This document shows positions 1,702-22,158 of a DNA stretch of 43,945 bases, piece after piece. Position 1 is the stretch's first letter, and each line of letters opens with the position of its first letter. The position numbers and the translations under genes were made by a program. The notes beneath the pieces were generated by a model. That model worked only from the letters and a program-made list of their open reading frames with translations. It was not told the DNA's origin and did not search any database. This DNA comes from Acidobacteriota bacterium (GTDB taxonomy: Bacteria; Acidobacteriota; Thermoanaerobaculia; Thermoanaerobaculales; Sulfomarinibacteraceae): the NCBI GenBank assembly GCA_013152895.1, contig JAADFN010000012.1:1-43945 (forward strand), written 5' to 3'.

Positions 1702-2670
1702 GTGGCTCAGACCAAGGGAAAGCGGACGTGGCGGCTCCTCGTGGCAGAGGATGAGCTCATCTCCCGCACTCTCTTGACCAGGCTCGTGAGCTCGTGGGGG
1801 TACGACGTGATCGCCGTCGAGGATGGTTCGCAGGCCCTCGAGGTTCTGGAAGGTGACGATCCGCCAAGACTCGCCGTGCTCGACTGGATGATGCCCGGCG
1901 CCGACGGTGTCGCCATCTGCCGGCGCATTCGCGCCCTGAGGCGTGAGCCGTACATCTACCTGATCATCCTGACGGCCTTGCAGGAACGGCAAAAACTCGT
2001 CGAAGCCCTGGAGGCCGGCGCGGACGATTTTCTCACCAAGCCGGTGCAGCCCCACGAGCTGGAGCTCAGGATCCATGTCGGCCGCCGCATCGTTGAGCTG
2101 GAAGAACAGCTGATCGAGGCGCGCGAGGCCCTCCGCGAGCTGGCGACCCACGATCCTCTGACCAGGATATGGAACCGGCGAGCGATTCTTGAAATTCTCG
2201 AAAAGGAAATCGCCAGGGCGTCGCGAAAGGGCGCCTCGGCCGATGTCTGCGCATTGATGATCGACATCGACCATTTCAAGACGGTCAATGACCAGTATGG
2301 TCATCTTGTCGGGGACCAGGTTCTGATGCACGTCGCCGAGCGGATCCGCGAGGCTGTGCGGCGGCACGACGAGGTGGGGCGATACGGTGGGGAGGAGTTC
2401 CTGGCCGTTCTCACCGGTTGCGGTGTGAACGGCCTGAAAGCGGTCGCAGAGAGAATCCGCAAAGAGGTGGCCGAAAACCCATTCGTCACCGGGGACAGGC
2501 CAATCGCCGTCACCGTCAGCCTAGGTGGCGCGCGGTTAACCGGGGGAGAGGGAGGTGGATCCATCATGCAGCTCATCGGCCGGGCCGATCACGCATTGTA
2601 CGAGGCAAAGGATCAAGGCCGAAATCGTGTCGTCATAGACGGGGAGCAGGGGGTGAACGATGAAGAGTAA
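1702..2670 (+). CDS. response regulator diguanylate cyclase (REC-GGDEF)
   Basis: A cytoplasmic 322-residue protein predicted to make cyclic di-GMP from two GTP when phosphorylated. The N-terminal receiver domain (about 10-130) has the acidic pair in VAEDE, the phospho-acceptor Asp61 in VLDWMMPG and the conserved Lys in TKPV. A short helical linker leads to a GGDEF domain (about 155-315) with the active-site signature GGEEF at 229-233. The product-inhibition I-site RxxD is present (RRHD, 220-223), so feedback control by c-di-GMP is likely. The start is GTG with GGGAGG a few bases upstream. The stop overlaps the next gene by 11 nt, so the two are translated together and probably share a phosphorelay. 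There is no membrane segment. Confidence 0.93.
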   Translation: MAQTKGKRTWRLLVAEDELISRTLLTRLVSSWGYDVIAVEDGSQALEVLEGDDPPRLAVLDWMMPGADGVAICRRIRALRREPYIYLIILTALQERQKLVEALEAGADDFLTKPVQPHELELRIHVGRRIVELEEQLIEAREALRELATHDPLTRIWNRRAILEILEKEIARASRKGASADVCALMIDIDHFKTVNDQYGHLVGDQVLMHVAERIREAVRRHDEVGRYGGEEFLAVLTGCGVNGLKAVAERIRKEVAENPFVTGDRPIAVTVSLGGARLTGGEGGGSIMQLIGRADHALYEAKDQGRNRVVIDGEQGVNDEE

Positions 2671-4669
2671 CCAGCTGCAGAAGGGTGAGGCTCGGAAAGC
2701 CCATTGGGACGGCGGGAAGAATGTCTCCGCCCTGGCGTTGTCATACGTTGCAGATGTGAGCCACGAGCTGCGGGGACCTCTCAACGTGATTCTCGGGATG
2801 ACAGAGTTGCTGGGGGATATGCGGTTGACGGCCAGGCAGCGCGAGCTGTTGGACAACATCCGTAGCTCGGGAGAAATCCTGATTTCTTCGGTCAACGAGA
2901 TGGCCGACTTCGTGGGCATGGCTGTCGGCGGGCTCAGGCTCACATCGCTCGACTTCTCCCCGCGAACGTTGGTGGAAGACATGGGGGATCTTGTCGCCGA
3001 GAAGGCCAGCGCCCGGGGACTCGAGTTGATCATCCTTGTCGATCATGATGTGCCGGAACGTATGACCGGGGATCCAACGCAGCTGAGGCGGGTGCTGACG
3101 ACGCTGGTCAATTCGGCGATCCGGCGTGCCCGGGGGGGAGAGATTGTCGTACGGGCGGAGCTGGCGGTATCGGGACCGCCGGGGAGCCTCCGCTTCAGCG
3201 TGGAATACGATGGCCCGGCTGTGTCGCTCGAAGAAACTCGAATGGATGCGGTCGGTTTTCCGGACGAAGATATGTTGACTCTGCGTGGTCCTCATCCAAC
3301 AGGGCCCCAGCTCGCCATGATCGGGCAGATCGTACGACGAATGGGAGGCGTCCTGGAGGTCGAAAGGCTCGACGGCGGCCGTTCGCGCATGGCGTTCGAC
3401 GCGAGGCTTGAACCCGTGTCCGGAGAGGAACAGATAGCGCAAGAACCGGACGTACAGCTCGGTGGGCTCAAGGTCCTTGTGGTTGACGACAGCGAGGCGA
3501 ACCGCAAGCTGCTCGAAGAGATTCTGCGGAGCTCGGGGTGCCAGACGGCCGTGGCGGCGGGCGGCGCCGAGGCCCTGGACCGCCTTCACGAGGCGGAGGG
3601 TACGCAACCGTTCGACCTGGCGATTCTCGACTTCGTCATGCCGGACATGGACGGGGTCACGCTGGCCTCAGCGATCCGAGCGCATCTTTCCGCAGCCTCG
3701 ATGCCGATGATTCTCCTGACCTCCGCGCCGGCGGCTGGGGACGCAGAACGGATGCGTGAGGCGGGCTTTGACGCGTACCTCACCAAGCCGGTCACGCGGG
3801 CGGATCTCACGGATACGGTGCGTTGGGTGCTGTCACGGCCGGCCAGAGCACGGGGCGGACTGATCACACGTCATACGTTGAGGGAGACACGGCGAACCCG
3901 GCTGCGGATCCTCCTGGTCGATGACGATGAGCTCAACCAGAAGACGATCGCAGCGATGCTCGAACGGCTTGGATACAGGTGCGATCTGGCGGCAAACGGC
4001 CGCGCTGCCGTTCAAGCCCTGGCGCGGCGCGAGTACGACGTTGTCCTGATGGACTACGAAATGCCCGTTATGGATGGGTTCGAGGCGACGCGGCGTATTC
4101 GCGAACGGGAAAAGGAGACGCGCCGCAGGACGCCGATTATCGCGACGACCGCAGATACCCTTGCTGGCAACCGCGACAGGCTCCGTGAGATCGGGATGGA
4201 CGAGTACGTTCCCAAACCGATTGATATCCGGGAGCTGGCAGAAGTCCTTGCCCGTTTGACCGGCGAAGAGGTTCCAGCGCCTCAATCTCTCGAGAAGGAC
4301 CAAGGGGCTGAGCCAGTGGATATCTCGCGGCTCGAGCTGATGTCGGGGAACGATGTGGGTTTCTTGAAGAAGATCATCTTCATGTTTCTCGATGAGAGTG
4401 AGAGCCGTCTGGGTGCGTTGAAGCACGCACTCGAAGCGGCTGACTTCGAAACGGTTCACGGCGAGGCTCATGCGCTCAAGGGAGCGGCCGGCAATCTCGG
4501 TGCCCGGGAAGTGAGCGAGGCCGCCGCCACCCTTCAGCAAGCCGCCAAAGCCGAAGATCGCGGTGAGTGTGTGGGCCTCCTGGCCACGCTCCAGGCGCGG
4601 ATGGAAGAGGCTGGCCGTTGGTTGAAGGCCTATGCGGGCCGGCTCCCGGCCGGACCGGATGGGGCCTGA
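2660..4669 (+). CDS. hybrid histidine kinase-like phosphorelay protein with degenerate ATPase domain (DHp-HATPase-REC-REC-HPt)
   Basis: A soluble 669-residue phosphorelay protein with no membrane, PAS or GAF input; the dimerisation/phospho-His helix begins almost at the N-terminus (His35 in VSHELRGPLN). Two receiver domains follow the ATPase region, with Asp324 (ILDFVMPDMDG) and Asp465 (LMDYEMPVMDG). A C-terminal HPt domain carries His604 in EAHALKGAAGNL. The ATP-binding region (about 120-260) has the right size, but its motifs are eroded: the N-box reads TLVNSAIRR instead of NLxxNAxKF, the DxGxG box reads YDGPAV, and the GTGLGL lid reads PTGPQL. It probably cannot autophosphorylate well and may act as a phosphotransfer hub or phosphatase for the upstream diguanylate cyclase. 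The start overlaps that gene by 11 nt. Confidence 0.88.
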   Translation: MKSNQLQKGEARKAHWDGGKNVSALALSYVADVSHELRGPLNVILGMTELLGDMRLTARQRELLDNIRSSGEILISSVNEMADFVGMAVGGLRLTSLDFSPRTLVEDMGDLVAEKASARGLELIILVDHDVPERMTGDPTQLRRVLTTLVNSAIRRARGGEIVVRAELAVSGPPGSLRFSVEYDGPAVSLEETRMDAVGFPDEDMLTLRGPHPTGPQLAMIGQIVRRMGGVLEVERLDGGRSRMAFDARLEPVSGEEQIAQEPDVQLGGLKVLVVDDSEANRKLLEEILRSSGCQTAVAAGGAEALDRLHEAEGTQPFDLAILDFVMPDMDGVTLASAIRAHLSAASMPMILLTSAPAAGDAERMREAGFDAYLTKPVTRADLTDTVRWVLSRPARARGGLITRHTLRETRRTRLRILLVDDDELNQKTIAAMLERLGYRCDLAANGRAAVQALARREYDVVLMDYEMPVMDGFEATRRIREREKETRRRTPIIATTADTLAGNRDRLREIGMDEYVPKPIDIRELAEVLARLTGEEVPAPQSLEKDQGAEPVDISRLELMSGNDVGFLKKIIFMFLDESESRLGALKHALEAADFETVHGEAHALKGAAGNLGAREVSEAAATLQQAAKAEDRGECVGLLATLQARMEEAGRWLKAYAGRLPAGPDGA

Positions 4670-8250: not shown

Positions 8251-10672
<2,422 letters not shown>

Positions 10673-10882
10673 CAACGCCGGGCGCAATATGTTGGCGGGC
10701 CGTGGTTTTCTTCCGGTCGCAACCTCGCTCTCAACTTTCAAAAAGCTGGCGTCGAAACATCTCGCACCCACGGGGCGGTCACGTGCAGGGCGCCTGCTCT
10801 GGACCACATGCACACGTTCAGGATGCGCGTGTCATGGAACTCCTTCAGTCAGGAAGTGGCTCCGTGACACGCGTTCCTGGTG

Positions 10883-10888
10883 TACACT
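10883..10888 (+). promoter_or_regulatory. -10-like box immediately before kdsA
   Basis: TACACT is followed by exactly six bases and then GTG (10895), which is in frame with kdsA. I see no good -35 box at the usual distance and no Shine-Dalgarno sequence. The arrangement matches leaderless genes, whose transcription starts at the first codon. Confidence 0.4.
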
Positions 10889-10894
10889 CCCGCC

Positions 10895-11731
10895 GTGGAA
10901 ATGAAAGACGGATTCGAAGCCGTTCCTGGGGTCGTGATTGGTGGGGGGGCAAGACCCGTGTACATCATCGGACCCTGCGTCATCGAGTCGGAGGCAATGG
11001 CAGTTGCGGTTGCGCATGGGCTTGAGGAGCTCGCCGCGCATCATGGCGTCCCGCTGGTTTTCAAGGCCTCGTTCGACAAGGCCAACCGCTCGTCCCTGGA
11101 GAGCTTCCGCGGGCCTGGACTCGAGCTTGGGTTGGAGATCCTGGGCCGGGTCAAGGAGGAGACCGGACTGCCCATTCTGACCGATTTTCATGAACCGTGG
11201 CAGGCCGAACGCGTGGCGGCGGTCGCCGACGTCCTTCAGATTCCGGCGTTCCTGTGCCGCCAGACGGATATGCTGCTCGCGGCGGGTCGGACCGGCGCCG
11301 TCGTCAATATCAAGAAGGGCCAGTTCATGGCGCCGGAGGACATGCGCCACGCCGTGGCCAAGGTCGCATCGACGGGGAATACGAAGGTGTTTCTGACCGA
11401 GCGCGGATCCTCGTTCGGTTATCACAACCTCGTTGTCGACATCCGCAGCTTCCCCGTGATGCGCGAGTTTGCACCGGTGGTGTTCGACGTGACCCATTCA
11501 CTCCAGCTGCCTGGAGGCCTCGGACATGCGACGGCCGGGGCGCGCGAATATCATCCCTACCTGGCACGGGCTGCTGCGGCCGCCGGGGTGGACGGGTTCT
11601 TTATCGAGGCGCACCCGGACCCGCCCTCTGCGCTTTCCGATGCCACGACCCAGTTGAGCCTTGAAGAGGTCGACACCCTGATCCCGCAGTTGGAACGGAT
11701 TATCCGGGCCGTTGAAGGAGTGCATGAATGA
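10895..11731 (+). CDS. kdsA: 3-deoxy-8-phosphooctulonate synthase, metal-dependent type
   Basis: Condenses phosphoenolpyruvate with arabinose 5-phosphate to KDO 8-phosphate. Signatures in order are IIGPCVIES, KASFDKANRSS, DFHEPWQ, ERGSSFGYHNLVVD, DVTHSLQLPG and EAHPDPPSALSD. The Cys in GPCVIES, where the E. coli enzyme has Asn, and the ALSDATTQL tail match the metal-requiring class typified by Aquifex aeolicus. The start is uncertain: GTG 10880, GTG 10895 and ATG 10901 are all in frame. I use 10895 because of the -10-like box six bases ahead. The stop overlaps the kdsD start by 4 nt. Confidence 0.95.
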   Translation: MEMKDGFEAVPGVVIGGGARPVYIIGPCVIESEAMAVAVAHGLEELAAHHGVPLVFKASFDKANRSSLESFRGPGLELGLEILGRVKEETGLPILTDFHEPWQAERVAAVADVLQIPAFLCRQTDMLLAAGRTGAVVNIKKGQFMAPEDMRHAVAKVASTGNTKVFLTERGSSFGYHNLVVDIRSFPVMREFAPVVFDVTHSLQLPGGLGHATAGAREYHPYLARAAAAAGVDGFFIEAHPDPPSALSDATTQLSLEEVDTLIPQLERIIRAVEGVHE

Positions 11732-12684
11732 CGCTTGACGTTGCGCGCCAGGTGCTTGAGGTTGAGGCGGATGCGATCAAGGGGCTGATCTCGAAACTCG
11801 GACCGACGTTCGAGGGTGCCGTGAACATGGTTCTTTCCTGCACGGGGCGGGTCGTGTGGTCCGGAATGGGGAAGTCCGGGATCATTTGCCGCAAGCTCGC
11901 GGCGACGATGGCGTCGACCGGCACGCCCGCCCTCTTCCTCCACCCGGCGGAAGCGATCCATGGCGACCTCGGGATGGTAACGCCCAACGATCTCGTGATC
12001 TGCGTTTCGCATTCCGGTGAGACCGAGGAGATGCTTCGCCTGGCCGAGGTGCTCAAGCGGCTCGGCATTTCGATGATCGCCGTGACCTCCAATCCGGATT
12101 CGAACCTTGCGAAGGTTGCAGACCTCCACCTGGATCTGGGTGTGAGGCGCGAGGCGTGCCCGTTGAACCTCGCGCCGACCGCGTCGACGACGGCGACCCT
12201 CGCCCTCGGCGATGCGCTGGCAGTCTCCGTCTCGGTGCGCAAGGGCTTTGGCGAAGAGGACTTCGCCCGCCTCCATCCCGGCGGCAAGCTCGGCAAGCGT
12301 TTCTTGCGGGTCGAGGAGCTGATGCACGGGGGGGAGCAGATCCCCCGGGTCGGTATGTCGACGCCGATGAAAGACGTGATCTACGAGATGAGCCGCAAGG
12401 GTCTCGGTATGGCGACTGTCCAGGACGACGCGGGGCATCTTCTGGGGGTGATTACGGACGGCGATCTCCGCCGGTTGATGGAACGGGAGAAAAACCCGCT
12501 CGTCAAGACGGCGGGCGAGGTCATGCACGCGGGCGGCGTCACGATCAAGGCGGACGAGCTTGCCACCGTGGCGCTGCGAACGCTTGAGGAGCGGCGGATC
12601 ACCTCGTTGATGGTGGTCGATCCAGAAGGCCGCGTGCAGGGTGTTCTCCACCTCCACGACCTGTGGGGCGTCGGGCTGTTCTGA
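11728..12684 (+). CDS. kdsD: arabinose-5-phosphate isomerase (KpsF/GutQ family)
   Basis: Interconverts ribulose 5-phosphate and arabinose 5-phosphate, the first KDO-specific step. The 318-residue protein has an N-terminal SIS sugar-isomerase domain (about 30-180) with VVWSGMGKSG and VSHSGETEEML. RLHPGGKLGKRF forms the usual link to a pair of CBS domains (about 205-318). It is coupled to kdsA by an ATGA overlap. The phosphatase gene kdsC, often found beside kdsD, does not follow; the next gene is convergent sucD. Confidence 0.95.
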   Translation: MTLDVARQVLEVEADAIKGLISKLGPTFEGAVNMVLSCTGRVVWSGMGKSGIICRKLAATMASTGTPALFLHPAEAIHGDLGMVTPNDLVICVSHSGETEEMLRLAEVLKRLGISMIAVTSNPDSNLAKVADLHLDLGVRREACPLNLAPTASTTATLALGDALAVSVSVRKGFGEEDFARLHPGGKLGKRFLRVEELMHGGEQIPRVGMSTPMKDVIYEMSRKGLGMATVQDDAGHLLGVITDGDLRRLMEREKNPLVKTAGEVMHAGGVTIKADELATVALRTLEERRITSLMVVDPEGRVQGVLHLHDLWGVGLF

Positions 12685-12848: not shown

Positions 12849-13736
12849 CTACCCAAGGTGTCTGAATGCGTGGAGGTGCTCCTTCATCGTCTTGCCGATT
12901 TCCGCCGGGGTGGGGACGACAGCGATGCCAGCGGCCGCAAGAGCTTTCATCTTTTCAGCTGCGGTTCCCTTGCCGCCGGAGATGATCGCGCCGGCGTGCC
13001 CCATGCGGCGCCCCGGAGGCGCGGTCTGCCCGGCGATGAACGCGACGACCGGCTTGGTCATGAACTGCTGGACGAAATCGGCCGCCTGCTCCTCAGCATT
13101 ACCACCGATTTCGCCGATCATGACGACGCCCTCCGTGTCCGGGTCCTCTTCGAACGCCTCAAGGCAGTCGATGAAATTGGTGCCCGGCAGCGGGTCGCCT
13201 CCGATGCCGACGCAGGTGCTCTGGCCAAGGCCGAGCTGTGTCAGCTGGTGGACCGCCTCATAGGTCAGCGTTCCGGAACGGGAAATCACGCCGATGGAGC
13301 CCTGCTTGTGAATGTGACCTGGCATGATGCCCAGCTTGGTCTTGCCGGGCGAGATGATGCCGGGGCAGTTTGGCCCGATCAGACGCGTCGGAAGGCCCTG
13401 GAGTATCCGGCGAACGCGGATCATGTCACGCACGGGGATTCCCTCGGTGATGCACACGACGAGATCGATCCCGGCGTCTGCCGCTTCGAGGATCGCATCG
13501 GCGGCGAATGGCGGTGGCACGAAAATCAGGGAGGCATTGGCACCGGTGGCGTTGATGGCATCCTCGACCGTGTTGAACACGGGAACACCGTCAACTTCCT
13601 GTCCGGCCTTTCCAGGGGTGACGCCGGCAACAACGTGGGTGCCATACTCGCGGCACTTCTCAGCGTGGAAACGGCCCTCTTTACCGGTCAGGCCCTGAAC
13701 GACAACTCGCGTTTCTTCGTTAGCCCAAATACTCAT
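12849..13736 (-). CDS. sucD: succinyl-CoA synthetase (ADP-forming) alpha subunit
   Basis: The alpha subunit of the TCA-cycle enzyme that makes ATP or GTP from succinyl-CoA. The 295-residue protein has the CoA-binding Rossmann domain (QGLTGKEG, then [10 protein letters not shown] and [10 protein letters not shown]) and the ligase domain with active-site His247 in [11 protein letters not shown]. The motif [11 protein letters not shown] is intact. It starts 10 nt after the sucC stop, so the two are co-transcribed. Confidence 0.97.
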
Positions 13737-13746
13737 GATTGCCCCC

Positions 13747-14910
13747 TCACTTCCCCGCCACGGCGGCGACGATCTTCTCGGCCGAATCGGCCATTCCTTC
13801 GCCGACGATCAGATCGAGACCGGACTCGGCGAGAAGACGCCTGCCCTCCTCGACGTTGGTACCCTCGAGACGAACGACGAGTGGAACGTTGATTGCAACT
13901 TGCTTCGTCGCTTCGATAACACCGTTAGCGATCATGTCGCAGCGGACGATCCCTCCGAAGATGTTGATCAGGACGCCCTTGACCGCCTCGTCCGAAAGGA
14001 GAAGCCGGAAGGCCGCGGCCACCCGCTCCTGGGAAGCGGCGCCACCGACGTCCAGGAAATTCGCGGGCGCGCCTCCCGAGAACTTGATGATGTCCATCGT
14101 GGACATGGCCAGTCCGGCACCGTTGACCATGCAGCCGATGTTGCCGTCCAGCTTGATGTAGTTCAGGTCGTACTTGGATGCCTCGACCTCGTGGGGTTCC
14201 TCTTCCTGGATGTCCCGCAGCTCGACGATGTCGGGGTGACGGAAAAGAGCGTTGTCATCGAAGTTCATCTTGGCGTCGAGAGCGACGACCCGTCCGTCGG
14301 TCGTCGTGACCAGCGGGTTAATCTCCGCGAGCGACGCATCCGTCTCGGCGTACGCCTTGGCCAGGGCTGTCATGAATTTCACTCCGGCCTTGAACGCGGC
14401 ACCGCTGAGCTCGAGCCCGAACGCAAGCTTGCGGGCCATGAACGGCTGCAACCCCGAATCTGGATCGAACGGGACCTTCAGGATCGCTTCCGGATGCTCG
14501 GACGCGACCTCTTCGATCTCCATGCCGCCGAACTGCGACACCATCATCACGGGGAATCCCTCGGAGCGGTCCAAAACGATTCCGAGGTACAGCTCACGTT
14601 CGATCGGAAGCGCCTCCTCCACGTAGACCTTGTGGACGATCTTGCCCTTGGCGCCGGTCTGCTTCGTGACGAGCTTCATTCCAAGGATCTGCTTCGCCAC
14701 CTCGACCGCCTGACCAGGGGTGTCGGCAAGCTTGACGCCGCCGGCCTTGCCACGTCCACCGGCATGAACCTGGGCCTTTACGACCACGCGTCCGCCCAGC
14801 TCCTCCGCCGCCTTGCGGGCATCCTCGGCCTTGGTTACAAGGATGCCGCGCGGAACAGCCACACCGTAGCGCGCGAGGATTTCCTTCGCTTGATACTCAT
14901 GAACTTTCAT
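13747..14910 (-). CDS. sucC: succinyl-CoA synthetase beta subunit
   Basis: The nucleotide-binding beta subunit, 387 residues. It starts [17 protein letters not shown], the usual N-terminus, preceded by a strong AAGGAGG about 5 nt before the ATG at 14910. The ATP-grasp fold is visible through [19 protein letters not shown], and the C-terminal domain has [13 protein letters not shown] and [11 protein letters not shown]. The frame could be extended 25 codons upstream, but the ribosome binding site decides the start. It is the first gene of sucCD. Confidence 0.97.
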
Positions 14911-14956
14911 AGGACCTCCTTCACATTCCCCGTCGCTGAGCGGCGGTGGATGGGTT

Positions 14957-14985
14957 ATTGTGCACTTTTCTTCACAAGCTCGCAA
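14957..14985 (-). promoter_or_regulatory. sucCD promoter candidate
   Basis: On the minus strand TTGCGA (14985-14980) and CACAAT (14962-14957) are separated by 17 nt. Transcription would start near 14950, leaving a leader of roughly 40 nt that contains the AAGGAGG of sucC. Confidence 0.5.
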
Positions 14986-15132
14986 CCGTGGCAGAGGGGC
15001 AGGACCCCGAAGCGGCCAAAGAAAAGCACGCGTGGCATGCCCTCTGGAGGGACGCTCTGGGGAGTGGGGGATCGAATCGCCGGGGGCTCAACGCAGTTCG
15101 TTCGGGCACCGTACATTTTTGTGGAGGTCACA

Positions 15133-18100
15133 ATGCACATCATGGCGGCACTTCGCAAGATCTCAATGATGATCGCTGGGGCTCTGGCCGCGCTCGTGGC
15201 GGTTGCTGGAACGGCGGCGGCGGGTCCGTGGGTCGTGTCGATGGCGCAGCCGGACACGTGGCAGTTCACGGCGGCGGCGTGGGGGCGGGGACGGTACGTT
15301 GCCGCCACCGGCGACGGCATCATCGCCATCAGCCTGGACGGGGGTAGCTGGAGGGCGGTGGCCGGGAACAGTCACTGGTACATCCAGAAGATGGCGTTTG
15401 GAGCTGGGGGCTTCGTCGCTGTGGGACGGTACCGGGTTACCGATTCCTACACGGTGGGGCTCATCCTGCACAGTCCGGACGGCGTCACCTGGAGCGAAGC
15501 CGTGCGACCGGACCGGCTCAATGATCCCGGGGCGATTGCGTCCTCGGATGGAGTGTGGCGGGTCTTCGACCGTCAGTCGGTGTGGACGAGCCGTGGTGGA
15601 ACGCACTGGACGAGCCACCCGCTGACGTTCGACCGGCAGTGGATCGAGATCAAGGCCGTCTCCCGCTGGAAAGGAGGGTGGATCGCTGTCGGGAGCGTGG
15701 ACGACGGCTCGAAGCTCTCTACGGGGTGGATCGGAACGAGCGGTGACGCCGCGAGCTGGACAACGGTTGCGACTCCGGCCCGCCCGCTGAGCTTGCTGGC
15801 GGCAAGCCCGGCGAGGCTCGTCGGTGTGGGGGCCGGCCTCGCAGCCTGGAGCGAGGATGGCAGCTCGTGGACGGTCGAAGACCTGCCGGGCGGTCTCGAG
15901 ACGTCACTGACGGATCTCGCCTGGACGGGGACCTGTTTCGTCGCCTCCGGTTGGGAGGACCACCCCTCAACTGGGCCGGTGAACGGGTTCATCTTGACCA
16001 GCACGGACGGGTCGCAGTGGGAGTTTGCCGTCATCGATCCGTACGATTTCAGACTTATGCTCCCGGTATGGGCGCTCCACGCATTGGCGGTTTCGCCGGC
16101 GGGTTTGATCGCGCTTGGCGACGAGACGGTCATCGCGAGCGCCGGCGGGCAGAGCTGGCAGCATCGCCTCTTCGGATTTCCCTCGCAGCTCACGCAGCTC
16201 GTCCGGTTTGGCGGGAACCCGCTGGCAATCCAAACGCAGCTCTTCCCCGGGGATGATCCTTCCTGGGCGGAGGTTTTCGCCTATGGAACGAAGAACGGGA
16301 TCGCCTGGGGCCTGGACGGTGGCCCGTGGATCAAGCCAACCGGAATAGCGTGGCGGTTCATCTCGCGCGAGCGGCAGCTCTTCGGGTACAAACGGTACAT
16401 CGGACGTTCGGTCTCGGTGCTGGGGCCGGACGGTCAGTGGCGTTTTGGGTCGCTGCCGTCGAGTCCAAGCTCGTACCCCACGGGTGCGGCGTGGGGAGCG
16501 CCGGGAATCGTGGTCGTGGAGACGCACGGGACGATCGATTTCAGCACGGACGGCTTGGCGTGGAGCCAACGGAGCATTCCGGGAACTCACATTTCATGGC
16601 AGAACGTCGTCTGGACGGGCTCGATGTTCATGGCGATCGGGAGTCAGGGAGAGGTGGCCGTCAGCCCGGACGGCCTGGTATGGGCGATGCGCCGCCGCCC
16701 TGGTAATGGTGTAGACGCTTCATTTGCGGCAACGAACGGCAATCTGACCGTCGTGGCGGGGGCGTACGGATCCCTGGCCTGGACGGTGGACGGCCGGAGA
16801 TGGACCTATGTCTCCCAGACCACGAGCGAGGACCTGAACAGCGTTCGCTGGACCGGGGACCGCTTTGTCGCGTCGGGGAACGGGGGCGCCGTGCTCGAAA
16901 GCGCCGACGGCAGGAGCTGGACCGTGAGCCCGGCTCCGCCGCTTGCCGTGGACCTCCATGGAGCGGACAGGATGGATGGCCGAACGATCGTCATCGGCCA
17001 GGGATCGACGATCCAGGTGCGCCTGCCGTCGGTCCCGGAGATTTCTCAGTTGCCCGCGTACCGGACGGTCGTTCCCGCCGTGGCCCACGCGCCGGGTGTC
17101 AACGGGTCGTTCTGGAACACGAGTCTCACGCTGGGAAACCACGTGACCGGTTCCGTTCTCGTCTGGCTCCGGTGGCTTCGCACGTCGGGGCCGGTCGAGA
17201 CGCACCCGTTCGTGGTGCCCGGCGGCTGCGAGCTCGGCGACGTGGTGGAGACGCTTTTCGGCGCGAGCTCCGGGTCCGGGGCGCTGATCATCGACTCGGA
17301 CGCGCCGCTGGCCGTCAGCAGCCGCACGACGGCGGAAGCCGGCGGACGTGGTCCCGGCCAGGTGTTGCCCGGGATCACACCCATCCCGGGAGGTACGGCC
17401 GCGGTTCTTCCGGGGCTTGCGGGAGCTCCCGTATTCCGGACGAACATCGGGCTCGCCAACCTCGGAGGCGCCGGGGAACATGTCACGATCGACCTGCTGG
17501 ATGCCGACGGGAGACTGTTGCGGCGGCGCGAGGTCGACGTCGATGGCTGGCAGTCGGTGCAGCTCAACCGCGTCTTCAAGGGGCTTGGCGTCGGAGGAAT
17601 GGCGTGGGCGCGGGTGAGCTCAGACGGTCCGTTCTCGACGTACGCGTCGGTGATCGACAACGGAACGAACGATGCGGCGACGGTGCTGCCGGCGGTGGTG
17701 ACGTCGCAGCCGCTGATCGTTCCGGCGGCCGCCCACACGGGTGGCGCCAACGGCGCCGTGTGGCGGAGCGATCTCGATCTCGTCGATCCGGGGGAGGGGC
17801 CGACCGAGGTGGCACTCGAGCTTCTGACACCGGAGGGTGGCGCCGTGCCGGGCGGAACCGTCACCCTTGGGCCGCAATCCGCCGTGCAGCTTCGCGACGT
17901 GCTCGCCGCCCGGTTTCCCGGGCACGCCGCCGGGGCGATCCGGATCACTCCTCGAACCGGGACGGTCGCAGCCTGGAGCCGCACCTTCGACGTGACGCCG
18001 GAAGGAACGCTGGGACAGGGGATCCCGGCCGTTCTGGAGAGCTCGGCCGCGGTTCCCGACGGCGGCGTGCTGTCGATCGGCGGTCTACGGGGGGGCAGCT

Positions 18101-18417
18101 CAGTCTCCGGATGGTTCCACACGAACGTCGGCCTGGTCAACGTCGGCGATACCCCGTCGAAGCTGCACCTGAAGGTCGAGGACGCAGTGTACGACGTGAA
18201 GTTTGACACCACCGTCACGGTTCCCGCGAATGGGTGGCTGCAGCTCCTGAAGGTATTGAGCCACCGGGCCGTCGAACCGCTCGGCGGTGGCTTTGTGAAC
18301 ATCAGTGTCACGAGCGGTTCGAGCCGGGTACTCGCCTGGGCCTCGGTCATCGACAACACGTCGGGAGACCCGTCGTTCCTGCTTGGCCAAACGGTTCCGG
18401 CAGCGCCGGCGGAGTGA
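15133..18417 (+). CDS. large secreted beta-propeller protein with four C-terminal repeat domains
   Basis: A 1094-residue exported protein of unknown function. A Sec signal peptide (about 1-30, hydrophobic ALAALVAVAGTAAAG) is followed by repeated blades of about 40-60 residues to about residue 640. They share the pattern FVAVG...I..S.DG..W, as in BNR/photosynthesis-stability-like propellers. The C-terminal third has four related beta-rich repeats starting near 648 (VPAVAHAPGVNGSFWNTSL), 758 (APVFRTNIGLANLG), 862 (VPAAAHTGGANGAVWRSDL) and 981 (GWFHTNVGLVNVG). I associate such repeats with secreted Acidobacteriota proteins. GTGGAGG precedes the ATG at 15133. The same frame is open back to 13735, but that part is antisense to sucC. 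No anchor or sorting signal is visible. Confidence 0.85.
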   Translation: MHIMAALRKISMMIAGALAALVAVAGTAAAGPWVVSMAQPDTWQFTAAAWGRGRYVAATGDGIIAISLDGGSWRAVAGNSHWYIQKMAFGAGGFVAVGRYRVTDSYTVGLILHSPDGVTWSEAVRPDRLNDPGAIASSDGVWRVFDRQSVWTSRGGTHWTSHPLTFDRQWIEIKAVSRWKGGWIAVGSVDDGSKLSTGWIGTSGDAASWTTVATPARPLSLLAASPARLVGVGAGLAAWSEDGSSWTVEDLPGGLETSLTDLAWTGTCFVASGWEDHPSTGPVNGFILTSTDGSQWEFAVIDPYDFRLMLPVWALHALAVSPAGLIALGDETVIASAGGQSWQHRLFGFPSQLTQLVRFGGNPLAIQTQLFPGDDPSWAEVFAYGTKNGIAWGLDGGPWIKPTGIAWRFISRERQLFGYKRYIGRSVSVLGPDGQWRFGSLPSSPSSYPTGAAWGAPGIVVVETHGTIDFSTDGLAWSQRSIPGTHISWQNVVWTGSMFMAIGSQGEVAVSPDGLVWAMRRRPGNGVDASFAATNGNLTVVAGAYGSLAWTVDGRRWTYVSQTTSEDLNSVRWTGDRFVASGNGGAVLESADGRSWTVSPAPPLAVDLHGADRMDGRTIVIGQGSTIQVRLPSVPEISQLPAYRTVVPAVAHAPGVNGSFWNTSLTLGNHVTGSVLVWLRWLRTSGPVETHPFVVPGGCELGDVVETLFGASSGSGALIIDSDAPLAVSSRTTAEAGGRGPGQVLPGITPIPGGTAAVLPGLAGAPVFRTNIGLANLGGAGEHVTIDLLDADGRLLRRREVDVDGWQSVQLNRVFKGLGVGGMAWARVSSDGPFSTYASVIDNGTNDAATVLPAVVTSQPLIVPAAAHTGGANGAVWRSDLDLVDPGEGPTEVALELLTPEGGAVPGGTVTLGPQSAVQLRDVLAARFPGHAAGAIRITPRTGTVAAWSRTFDVTPEGTLGQGIPAVLESSAAVPDGGVLSIGGLRGGSSVSGWFHTNVGLVNVGDTPSKLHLKVEDAVYDVKFDTTVTVPANGWLQLLKVLSHRAVEPLGGGFVNISVTSGSSRVLAWASVIDNTSGDPSFLLGQTVPAAPAE

Positions 18418-18450: not shown

Positions 18451-21400
18451 GTGAGCGTCTCATCGAGCGAATCGTTTTCGACGCCCCCGGGAGGGCACGA
18501 AGGCGATGACGGCGAGTCCGGGCGGCGCGCGTCCCCGCGCGTGACGACACCCGGTGTGCAGCCACGTTCGTGGTGGCTGGCACTCGCCGCGCTGGCGCTC
18601 TGCGGGCCGTGGCCGGGATGGGCTCCCGGGGCGTGGCAGCTCGCGGCGATGCTCGTGGGGCTGGCAATCCTGGCGCGGCCGCGGGGGCGGGCGTGGCTCG
18701 GATGGATCATGGTCGCGGCGGCTGGCATCCTCCTGGTTGCTCGGCCGGCGTCCACGCCCCGCATCGCACAGTGGCAAAACGGCCTCGAGCACCACTGCAG
18801 CCGGATGCTCGATGCCGCCGAGCAGGTCGTGACGGATCAGCGGATTCAACGGATTTTCGGCGCGACGGGCGAAGTCGTTCGTCCGGAGATGCTCTTCGCG
18901 GTCGTCTCACGGGCGGCCGGACACGTCCCCGGGAGGACCGTTTTCCTGGCCGACGACCGCGGCAATCTCGTCGCCTGGGCTGGAAAACGGCGGGAATACC
19001 CGCGCGATATGAGGCCGCTGGGCGAGCGCCGGTGGAACGTGGTGTGGCGGGTCCAGTCGGGCGCCCTGATGATCCGGGAGCCGATTCTCCACGAGGGGCG
19101 TCTCGTCGGTGCGGTCACCGTGGTCGACCGTGCAAGCAGGCGGTCCAGGTCGGTATGGGGGATGCGGGCTGGCTGGGCTGCCCGCGTTCTCGTGTCATCG
19201 GGCAATGGGGGCTCGGGGCCCATCATCCGGAGCCCGAGGTTCCCGGGAGTCGCCGTGCGGGTCCGGCAGGAGCCGGCATCCGAGATGGGCGCGGTCCCGG
19301 CGGTCCGGTGGTGGCCATGGCTGGGATTCATCCTCGTGGCGATGGCCGTATACCCGGGCGTGGCCGTGGCCGGCGCCGTCGTGGGCGGTCTTTCTCTGGC
19401 CGTTGCAGCCGGCCCGGTGCCCACAACACTGTCCGGAATCGTGGTTCTGGCGGCCGGCGCCGCGGTGGGAAGATGGATACGAACCCTGTCGCCGGGCCGC
19501 GGGCGCTGGCTGGCCCTCGCCGGGTTGGCAGCGCTTCCGGTTTCGGCGCTGCTTCTCAGAACCTCCGGCATCGCGTCGTGGCTCCCCGAACGGGCGTTCC
19601 AGCCCGGGTGGGGCGCCGCGTGGATGGTTGCAGCGTCGTGGGTCGCCGCGGGGTGGTGGAAGCATCAGCGCGAGGGCGGCGTGGGACTCGACCGGCGCAT
19701 TCTCGTCGCCCTGGCGGCGGTGGCCGCCGGGCTATTCGCGCAGCTCATTCACGTTCCGGTGCAGGTCCGTGCTGCCGAATCCCGTGGCCGGGCGCCGGTC
19801 CTTGGCCATCGGTCCATCGTTCTCGATGGGATCCTTCCTGGGGCGATCTCCTCCTGTCATCTCGATGATCTTGCCGGCAAACTGGCGATGGATCTTGGCT
19901 TGCCGGAATGGCGCGAACCGGCGATGCTCCAGGTGATCAGTCCGAAGGGCGGGGTCATCTCGCAGTGGGGAGATCTCAGCGAAGCCGGGAGCGAGATCGA
20001 GAGGCTCCATGCCTGGACCCTCGTGGCCGGGGGAAAACGCGTCGCAAGGGCCGAGCTGTTCGTTGCGTCCCCTCCATGGGGCATGCTCCGGGACTGGCGT
20101 TCGTGGGAGTCGGTGGACCGGTTTGCCTCGGCTCCCGTCTGGTTTGCCGTGATGACCCGCTCCGGCCAGGTTGGCGCGACCATTCACTCCGGGATTCCAG
20201 ATTTGACGCCGCAAGAAGCGGGGAAGCTCTTCCATGCTGGAGGGGGATGGACGATGGTGTCCGCCGGAGGAAGCCGGCGTCTCGCGCACGTTCGCAGGCA
20301 GGGTGAGTGGCTCGTTACGGCGATCGCCCGGTACCCGTCGGCGGCCGTCTGGATTCTCAGGGTCTTGCTGGCTCTTGTGTGGGCGATGGTTGGCCTGGCG
20401 ATAGCGGTCCCTCCCGTGTTCCGCCGGGACCGGGTCCAGACGTTCGGAGGACGGCTGCGCCTGCTGGTTGCGGGCGCCGTGGTCTTGCCGCTCGTTCTCT
20501 TGACCGTCTTTCTCCACCAGCGCCTGCGCCAGGACGGGGTGCGCCTGGAAGGCGTCGTTGCGGGCGACGCCTTGCAGGCGGCCAGGTGGACGGCGACGCA
20601 CCTCGCGGGAGGTTTCAAGGTCGACGAAAACCTGGCCCGTTGGATAGGGCGCCAGATCAGCGGCGAGGTCATCCTGTTCAAGGGGGCGTCTATCGTCGCC
20701 GCATCGCGCCCCGACCTCGTGACGGCCGGCCGGCTCCCGGGACTCCCGGCGCCGCCGGCGTACGTGGGGTACATGCTCGGCCGCGAGGCGCCCGTGGTTC
20801 TCCGGGAGGGGCCATGGCTCGTGGGCGCCGGGGGCGTCCGCGTCCAGGGCGTTCGGTACCTCCTCGAGGTCTTCCCGTCTGATCCGTTGACGGTGGGGGG
20901 ACTACCGGACGTGGTCGACTGGTTGCTCACCGGGGCCATCGTCGCCGCGCTGCTTGCGCTCGTTGTCACGTCGCGGGTGGAGCGGCAGCTGGGCGCCTCG
21001 TTGCAGACGCTGGTGGATCTTTCCGGGCGGGTCGAGCGTGGAGAACCGGTGGGGAAGGTCGAGCCTCCCGCCGAACGGGACCTGGCCCAGGTGGTCGATG
21101 CGGTTCGATTGATGAGTGAGGAGGTGCAGCGCCGGGAACGTGATCTGAAATCCCAGGAGGAGCTCCTGAGGATCACGTTGTCGACCCTCGCTCCGGCCGT
21201 CATCGTGTACGGGAGTAGCGGCGCAGTGTGGTTCACCAATCCCAGCGCCAAGACACTGCTATCGGAGCATGGGGAGCTGGTGTGGAGAGTCGTGTCGGAG
21301 GCCGGGGGGCGGACGCCTGACGGGGAACATGTCGCCATCCAGACGGTACAGCCGTTCCCGGGAGAAGACGTCACGTGGCGCGTGGGGGTCGCCGACGTGC

Positions 21401-22158
21401 CGCTCCCCGATGGACGCAGGGGCCAGGTCGCCGTGCTCGATGATGTGAGCGATGTCGTTCAAGCGGACCGTTTCCGCCAGCTGAATCAGCTCGCCAGGAT
21501 CGTGGCGCACGAGGTCAAGAACCCGCTGACGCCGATTCGGCTGTGGGTGCAGGAGATCGAGGACGCGCTGCACCGTGGCGATACTGGACTTGAAGATCTT
21601 CTGGAAGAAGCGTGCGCCGAGATCAGCGCCCAAGTCACCCGGCTTCAAAACACCGCGGCGTCATTTTCCAACCTCGTCGCCCTGGAGCGATGGGAGGCCG
21701 AACAGGTGGATCTTGCCGATCTGCTCCGATCGATCCTGGATGGGATGAAGATCCTTCAGCGGCGGGGGATTTCCATCGACGTGGACGCGCCCCCGGATCA
21801 GGTTTGTACCGTTGTTGGCGATCGGAGCTGGCTGCGCCGGGCGCTCACCAACGTGATTCAGAACAGTATCGATGTGCTGCGCGGACGGGGCGGGGAAATC
21901 CACGTACGCCTTCGCTCGCGAAACGGCAGGACGATCGTCGAGGTCGAAGATTCCGGCGGCGGGGTGCCGGAGGACCAGCTTGGGGAGCTGTTCAATCCGA
22001 GGTTCTCGACGACCAGCGCGGGAACCGGCCTCGGCCTGGCGCTGGTCCGTCACGTCATCGCACGATGCCACGGCACGGTGATGGCGTCCAACGGGCGCCA
22101 GGGGCTCGTGATCCGCATCGACCTCCCCGAAACCGGCCGCTCCTCTGCTACGATATGA
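18451..22158 (+). CDS. very large membrane sensor histidine kinase, NtrY-like
   Basis: A 1235-residue sensor kinase. Three N-terminal helices (about 41-99) lead to an outer segment (100-286), then a block of about five helices (287-436), a second outer segment (437-630), two helices (631-688), a third outer segment (690-818) and a last helix (820-840). A HAMP-like linker (850-900) and a PAS domain (about 905-1000) follow. The kinase core is intact: His1020 in VAHEVKNPLTPIRL, N-box NVIQNSID, G1 VEDSGGGVP and G2 GTGLGLAL. AHEVKNPLTPI is typical of NtrY-type kinases. NtrY is usually shorter (about 700-800) and paired with NtrX; no response regulator is near. The start is GTG without a ribosome binding site. 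The stop overlaps the following lipoprotein's first possible ATG. Confidence 0.88.
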   Translation: MSVSSSESFSTPPGGHEGDDGESGRRASPRVTTPGVQPRSWWLALAALALCGPWPGWAPGAWQLAAMLVGLAILARPRGRAWLGWIMVAAAGILLVARPASTPRIAQWQNGLEHHCSRMLDAAEQVVTDQRIQRIFGATGEVVRPEMLFAVVSRAAGHVPGRTVFLADDRGNLVAWAGKRREYPRDMRPLGERRWNVVWRVQSGALMIREPILHEGRLVGAVTVVDRASRRSRSVWGMRAGWAARVLVSSGNGGSGPIIRSPRFPGVAVRVRQEPASEMGAVPAVRWWPWLGFILVAMAVYPGVAVAGAVVGGLSLAVAAGPVPTTLSGIVVLAAGAAVGRWIRTLSPGRGRWLALAGLAALPVSALLLRTSGIASWLPERAFQPGWGAAWMVAASWVAAGWWKHQREGGVGLDRRILVALAAVAAGLFAQLIHVPVQVRAAESRGRAPVLGHRSIVLDGILPGAISSCHLDDLAGKLAMDLGLPEWREPAMLQVISPKGGVISQWGDLSEAGSEIERLHAWTLVAGGKRVARAELFVASPPWGMLRDWRSWESVDRFASAPVWFAVMTRSGQVGATIHSGIPDLTPQEAGKLFHAGGGWTMVSAGGSRRLAHVRRQGEWLVTAIARYPSAAVWILRVLLALVWAMVGLAIAVPPVFRRDRVQTFGGRLRLLVAGAVVLPLVLLTVFLHQRLRQDGVRLEGVVAGDALQAARWTATHLAGGFKVDENLARWIGRQISGEVILFKGASIVAASRPDLVTAGRLPGLPAPPAYVGYMLGREAPVVLREGPWLVGAGGVRVQGVRYLLEVFPSDPLTVGGLPDVVDWLLTGAIVAALLALVVTSRVERQLGASLQTLVDLSGRVERGEPVGKVEPPAERDLAQVVDAVRLMSEEVQRRERDLKSQEELLRITLSTLAPAVIVYGSSGAVWFTNPSAKTLLSEHGELVWRVVSEAGGRTPDGEHVAIQTVQPFPGEDVTWRVGVADVPLPDGRRGQVAVLDDVSDVVQADRFRQLNQLARIVAHEVKNPLTPIRLWVQEIEDALHRGDTGLEDLLEEACAEISAQVTRLQNTAASFSNLVALERWEAEQVDLADLLRSILDGMKILQRRGISIDVDAPPDQVCTVVGDRSWLRRALTNVIQNSIDVLRGRGGEIHVRLRSRNGRTIVEVEDSGGGVPEDQLGELFNPRFSTTSAGTGLGLALVRHVIARCHGTVMASNGRQGLVIRIDLPETGRSSATI

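Follow-up and report, generated by a model that had tools for sequence, protein, structure and literature searches.

Histidine kinase-like proteins that do not autophosphorylate and yet take part in phosphotransfer are already known. RetS of Pseudomonas aeruginosa has a degenerate HATPase domain without G-boxes, does not autophosphorylate and obtains the phosphate on its REC2 domain from GacS; the HExxT phosphatase motif is required (PMC5992135). RcsD of the Enterobacteriaceae possesses an inactive, poorly conserved HATPase, and its C-terminal HPt carries phosphate from the REC domain of a hybrid kinase to a response regulator (PMC7418988). ChpT of Caulobacter is a kinase-like dimer with a degenerate Bergerat domain that does not bind ATP, and the His of its DHp domain carries the phosphate (PMC3433190). 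Two other systems tie kinases to c-di-GMP. In Borrelia, the hybrid kinase Hk1, which bears REC and Hpt domains, is encoded beside the REC-GGDEF cyclase Rrp1 (PMC4013479). ShkA of Caulobacter is an active kinase that is activated by c-di-GMP via a pseudo-receiver (PMC7010744).

Here we describe a pair of overlapping genes, one for a diguanylate cyclase and one for a hybrid pseudokinase, from an Acidobacteriota bacterium of the family Sulfomarinibacteraceae. The window, that is, the whole stretch of DNA analysed, comprises 43,945 nucleotides (contig JAADFN010000012.1, forward strand). A sister species of the same genus (G007; Acidobacteria MAG S145_17, WGCW01000115.1) keeps the gene pair, and its syntenic orthologue of the pseudokinase is also 669 aa long and approximately 62% identical overall. 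Pfam matches in both genes agree with the coordinates and domains of the original prediction, which had read the locus as a REC-GGDEF protein followed by a hybrid protein. The cyclase has the following features:

1702-2670, + strand: diguanylate cyclase REC-GGDEF, 322 aa (Pfam Response_reg 84 bits, GGDEF 159 bits; sister-species orthologue 78% identical)
1732-2076, + strand: cyclase REC, acceptor Asp D61 at 1882-1884; acidic pair, Thr and Lys retained; 87% identity between the two species
2359-2400, + strand: RxxD inhibitory site (RRHD) at 2359-2370 and active-site motif GGEEF at 2386-2400; neither differs between the two species

By sequence and Pfam, the REC Asp, GG(D/E)EF and RxxD are all intact, and the protein is therefore classed as a REC-GGDEF diguanylate cyclase. 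The cyclase gene comes first, and the start codon of the pseudokinase lies inside it (11-nt overlap), so the two genes are very likely co-translated. This overlap is retained in the sister species. As in other modules of a hybrid kinase and a REC-GGDEF protein, the cyclase adjoins, on the same strand, a hybrid kinase bearing REC and HPt domains; the intact ATP boxes of the kinase in such modules are lacking in the window pair. The layout of the pseudokinase is as follows:

2660-4669, + strand: sensorless hybrid pseudokinase HisKA-HATPase-REC-REC-HPt, 669 aa (Pfam), start inside the cyclase gene
2741-2920, + strand: HisKA (DHp), aa 28-87, Pfam 49 bits; phospho-His H35 at 2762-2764
2762-2812, + strand: phospho-His helix, aa 35-51, HELRGPLNVILGMTELL, all 17 residues the same in the sister species; Gly in place of the H+4 Thr
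3056-3412, + strand: degenerate HATPase (CA), aa 133-251, weak Pfam match; 42-44% identity to the sister species; kinase fold in the AF2 model
3089-3130, + strand: eroded N-box, both Asn gone (T148, S152), from an alignment of related hybrid kinases
3200-3226, + strand: eroded G1 box VEYDGPAVS, Asp replaced by Tyr183, from the same alignment
3293-3313, + strand: eroded G2 box, HPTGPQL replacing GGTGLGL, from the same alignment
3467-3841, + strand: REC1 (Pfam), aa 270-394, Asp D324 at 3629-3631; 75% identical to the sister species
3902-4264, + strand: REC2 (Pfam), aa 415-535, Asp D465 at 4052-4054; 81% identical to the sister species
4325-4654, + strand: HPt, aa 556-665, phospho-His H604 at 4469-4471 (HALKGAAG), Pfam Hpt 54.5 bits

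No sensor domain was found in the pseudokinase by Pfam, and only about 27 residues precede HisKA. Since the upstream frame is open for only about 1 codon past the ATG (670 vs 669 aa), a wrong start cannot conceal a sensor upstream of the annotated one. Both observations agree with the sensorless protein originally proposed.

Other genes of the window were also noted. Downstream of the pair, positions 8251-12681 (+) encode a KdsB-like cytidylyltransferase, a CTP synthase, a KdsA-like member of the DAHP synthetase family and a KpsF-like SIS-CBS protein, pointing to KDO synthesis; the stretch of this cluster seen in locus L018 keeps its synteny in the sister species. Immediately upstream of a large kinase gene is an open frame of 1560 aa at 13735-18417 (+), which Pfam does not recognise and for which NCBIfam gives just a trivial match. 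The kinase gene (18451-22158, +) encodes a 1235-aa histidine kinase with HisKA-HATPase confined to its last ~230 residues; no Pfam family covers the ~1000 residues before them.

The three ATP-binding boxes had been predicted to be eroded in a protein that keeps its phosphate-carrying residues, and alignment, with Pfam for the HPt, confirmed both parts of this claim. In G1, DTGIGI has become YDGPAV, with the conserved Asp replaced by Y183, and in G2, GGTGLGL has become HPTGPQL. The intact N, G1 and G2 boxes of an active hybrid kinase are thus missing. Kept are H35 with E36, the HPt H604, the DD pair, D324, Ser/Thr and K376 of REC1, and the DD pair, D465, T497 and K519 of REC2. The H-box reads HELRG in both species, so that the HExxT phosphatase motif has Gly instead of Thr at H+4. 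An HMM search, proposed as a check along with the original prediction, gave a weak HATPase_c match to the pseudokinase (30.9 bits against a Pfam cut-off of 26.4), and most kinases in the same genome score far above this value. In structure prediction, the AF2 model of the kinase region has the usual DHp and Bergerat-type fold, and its lid (model residues 171-195) is at pLDDT <50. The folding alignment contained few relatives. ETR1, ShkA, RetS and GacS are the best structural matches to the kinase-region model. The individual domains of the full-length model are good; its pTM is 0.34, and the domain arrangement was therefore not read from it. From the lost boxes, we predict that the pseudokinase is most likely unable to bind ATP or to autophosphorylate.

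Comparison with the sister species strengthens this picture. Its orthologue is eroded too, with YDGPAI at G1 and no recognisable G2, where the letters differ from those of the window protein. The same erosion in two species at 62% identity indicates a pattern beyond chance. Between these two species (n = 2 within the genus), identity is 42-44% in HATPase and 39% in HisKA outside the His helix, vs 100% in the His helix itself, 75% in REC1, 81% in REC2 and 87% in the cyclase REC; the HPt, at 59%, is only moderately conserved. HATPase identity therefore lies 37 points below that of REC2, as compared with a mean difference of +2.7 points (sd 5.9, minimum -15) in 703 other kinase pairs, which are mutually non-independent and make these statistics descriptive. 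The His helix is ~66% identical (maximum 82%) in other pairs with similar HATPase identity, vs 100% here. With the tree held fixed, 24% of the domain tree length in HisKA and 26% in HATPase falls on this lineage, vs 3.5% in REC1 and 4.9% in REC2. REC, HPt and cyclase show dN of 0.09-0.32 vs dS >1 between the two species, indicating purifying selection. With HATPase and HisKA evolving fast and the RECs and His helix conserved, constraint has been lifted from the ATP-using module only, and the phosphate-carrying parts have been preserved. A His helix so strictly conserved suggests a continuing function for H35 or its docking surface, either as a ChpT-like carrier or as a RetS-like pairing surface. 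Taken together, the erosion in two species, the acceleration of the core, the invariant helix and the intact RECs and HPt support the pseudokinase assignment well.

Of 40 hybrid kinases of the phylum that were aligned, only the window protein and its G007 orthologue lack normal N, G1 and G2 boxes; the other 38 rule out an ordinary kinase family in which the boxes are weak throughout. No orthologue with eroded boxes was found outside the genus in the family, the order or a 396-genome sample of the phylum, the best matches being inspected in detail. The orthologue check proposed originally is thereby answered: the syntenic orthologue shares the erosion, and normal boxes occur only in more distant relatives, which dates the erosion to the window genus. 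In the tree, the genus pair groups with a protein of the same family (G011:C210; support 97/96), although the long stem (1.49) calls for caution about its exact position. This relative, 902 aa long, has the order PAS-PAS-HisKA-HATPase-REC-REC-HPt, with PAS domains that were called by reading the sequence; its boxes are intact, and no cyclase neighbour of its gene was detected.

Beyond the genus, the proteins closest to the cyclase share about 40-51% identity with it. Elsewhere in the phylum, a hybrid kinase adjoins on the same strand at 24 of 39 loci of near cyclase relatives, and a hybrid kinase or an HPt adjoins at 28 of the 39, the HPt being a separate small gene in several. These neighbourhoods indicate that kinase, HPt and REC-GGDEF protein form a recurrent module in the phylum. 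The gene order of the window pair is reversed relative to most of these relatives. This reversal, together with the cyclase-less G011:C210, suggests that the window pair may have been assembled anew rather than inherited as a module. Variants of the module were also seen. At two loci of another family (L190 and L191, in G188 and G228) the order is cyclase, hybrid kinase, cyclase and small HPt gene, so that two REC-GGDEF proteins flank one kinase. At L121 and L159 (G206 and G044) the cyclase-linked hybrid kinases have lost the acidic pair of REC1 (AESN, AETN); pseudo-receivers thus occur within the same type of kinase-cyclase module.

With regard to possible phosphate donors, the window genome (a 3.0-Mb assembly, 97% complete) contains two Pfam Hpt matches, one in the pseudokinase and one in a CheA-like HPt-HATPase-REC protein, and a relaxed threshold revealed only noise-level matches to further HPts in the genome. 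The sister species contains the pseudokinase HPt and two others, both beside HATPase matches, by which we take them to be CheA-like. These searches used the Pfam model on assemblies that are 97-99% complete. Six or more PAS-type hybrid kinases that carry a REC at the C-terminus and lack an HPt are also encoded in the window genome. If any of these use a His-Asp-His-Asp relay, the pseudokinase HPt would be the sole visible station besides the CheA-like one, which is a circumstantial argument; these candidate donors may also work without any HPt. Eleven GGDEF domains above the cut-off and five PilZ domains make it very likely that c-di-GMP signalling is real in this organism. A search for an active twin of the pseudokinase in the same genome found none, the next match being partial (E 4.5e-18). 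Locus L244 (702-4304, -) encodes a 1200-aa fusion, PAS-HisKA-partial HATPase-REC-PAS-GGDEF-EAL, with its HATPase split over two frames, possibly by a frameshift or an assembly error.

We consider it probable, on balance, that the pseudokinase acts as a genus-specific, non-autophosphorylating phosphotransfer hub that would exchange phosphate with the cyclase REC and switch c-di-GMP synthesis. Phosphate would be supplied by another kinase, either from the receiver of a hybrid kinase to the HPt or by His-to-Asp transfer onto REC1 or REC2. The HPt would then exchange phosphate with the receiver of the co-translated cyclase, whose phosphorylation would switch c-di-GMP synthesis. The data show the loss of the boxes in both species, the retained acceptor residues, the release of the core, the gene overlap and the lone non-CheA HPt. 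What we infer is the failure to bind ATP, the donor, the direction in which phosphate flows and its delivery to the cyclase. Forward flow is favoured only by analogy, as related operons hold an intact kinase in the equivalent place. The original idea of a phosphate router thus gains from the lone non-CheA HPt and from the hybrid-kinase and HPt neighbours of the cyclase family, while its donor, its direction and its delivery to the cyclase stay conditional. More tentative, and on the doubtful side, is an extension in which the pseudokinase would be the cell's only general HPt station. Several HPt-less sensor hybrid kinases would converge on it to set one cyclase, and it would have arisen when a self-sufficient kinase-cyclase pair lost its kinase activity.

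The same parts might instead drain phosphate. The HPt and RECs would strip the cyclase receiver, Asp-phosphate would be hydrolysed and c-di-GMP synthesis would be shut off. The residues for reverse transfer are all intact, reverse flow occurs in HPt relays generally, and the cyclase could obtain its phosphate from another kinase or from small phosphodonors. However, the sequence gives no preference for reverse over forward flow, the phosphatase Thr of HisKA is lost, and the intact kinase adjoining the cyclase in related operons suggests forward flow, all of which makes a drain unlikely.

The invariant His helix also fits a conserved pairing surface, and the pseudokinase could then be an inhibitor similar to RetS, pairing through its HisKA helices with an active hybrid kinase, blocking autophosphorylation, taking phosphate on REC2 and lowering signalling. 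RetS itself is a precedent, having a degenerate HATPase, no autophosphorylation and a REC2 phosphorylated from GacS (PMC5992135). In both sequence (E 2.6e-28) and fold (Z about 20), its kinase region ranks with the solved structures nearest to our protein, but active GacS and ShkA match equally well, so the likeness is a general one. In addition, our protein has Gly in place of the phosphatase Thr of RetS (HExxT), RetS lacks an HPt and any link to a cyclase gene, and no GacS-like partner of the same architecture was seen in the window genome. We therefore find this role quite improbable. Membership of the RetS family is likewise unsupported, active GacS being the better match by sequence.

The fast divergence of HisKA and HATPase could also mean that the gene is in decay, the kinase core dying after loss of the sensor and ATP pocket and the rest to follow. 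This is very improbable, given a 669-aa frame open in both species at about 62% identity, purifying selection on REC, HPt and cyclase, an invariant His helix and a cyclase overlap that has been kept. An atypical yet active kinase with an unusual nucleotide pocket, to which the retained fold of the AF2 model and an HATPase_c score still above the Pfam cut-off might point, is scarcely credible, since both species lack the N-box Asn pair, the G1 Asp and the G2 Gly cluster and share no alternative lid motif, and the lid is at pLDDT <50.

The phosphotransfer hub thus remains our preferred reading. The locus appears to offer a dated example of how a complete sensor kinase turned into a non-catalytic phosphate carrier, with an intact relative in a neighbouring genus and the erosion fixed by two species, and the release of the ATP module alone is measurable in the window lineage. 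If the relay is real, a c-di-GMP synthase would have been put under many kinases by losing kinase activity, without the gain of a domain, and two proteins with one HPt would provide a small system for studying phosphate routing by pseudokinases.

A c-di-GMP hub of this kind had originally been called unusual. This judgement is tempered by RetS, RcsD and ChpT (PMC5992135, PMC7418988, PMC3433190), and stands for the arrangement as a whole: we found no description of a pseudokinase-HPt-cyclase operon in the open-access literature that was searched. RetS and the pseudokinase share the order HisKA-HATPase-REC-REC, the loss of the G-boxes and the retention of the phospho-His and REC Asp, and are close in sequence and fold. 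RetS has a periplasmic sensor and an HExxT motif, and neither an HPt nor a co-encoded cyclase; the pseudokinase, in contrast, has an HPt, no sensor, HELRG at the H-box, and N and G1 boxes that are more eroded. With RcsD it shares a degenerate HATPase and a C-terminal HPt. RcsD, however, sits in the membrane, possesses periplasmic and PAS-like domains, has an ABL domain where the pseudokinase has RECs, and serves RcsB rather than a cyclase; the pseudokinase is sensorless, has two intact RECs, and none of the periplasmic, PAS-like or ABL domains of RcsD was found in it. ChpT lacks RECs and an HPt, whereas the pseudokinase has a separate HPt and its DHp His (H35), although set in an invariant helix, is only a putative carrier.

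Among the systems tied to c-di-GMP, Hk1-Rrp1 and the Acidobacteriota modules have kinases with a sensor and a conserved core, while the window pair has a dead core, no sensor and the cyclase gene in first place. ShkA likewise has a HisKA-HATPase-REC-REC core tied to c-di-GMP and matches the pseudokinase in fold (Z 20.3), but in the latter the phosphorylation residues of REC1 are kept and the kinase is eroded. Precedents therefore exist for parts of the window system, which combines a dead core like that of RcsD or RetS with intact RECs and HPt, the absence of a sensor and an overlapping cyclase gene.
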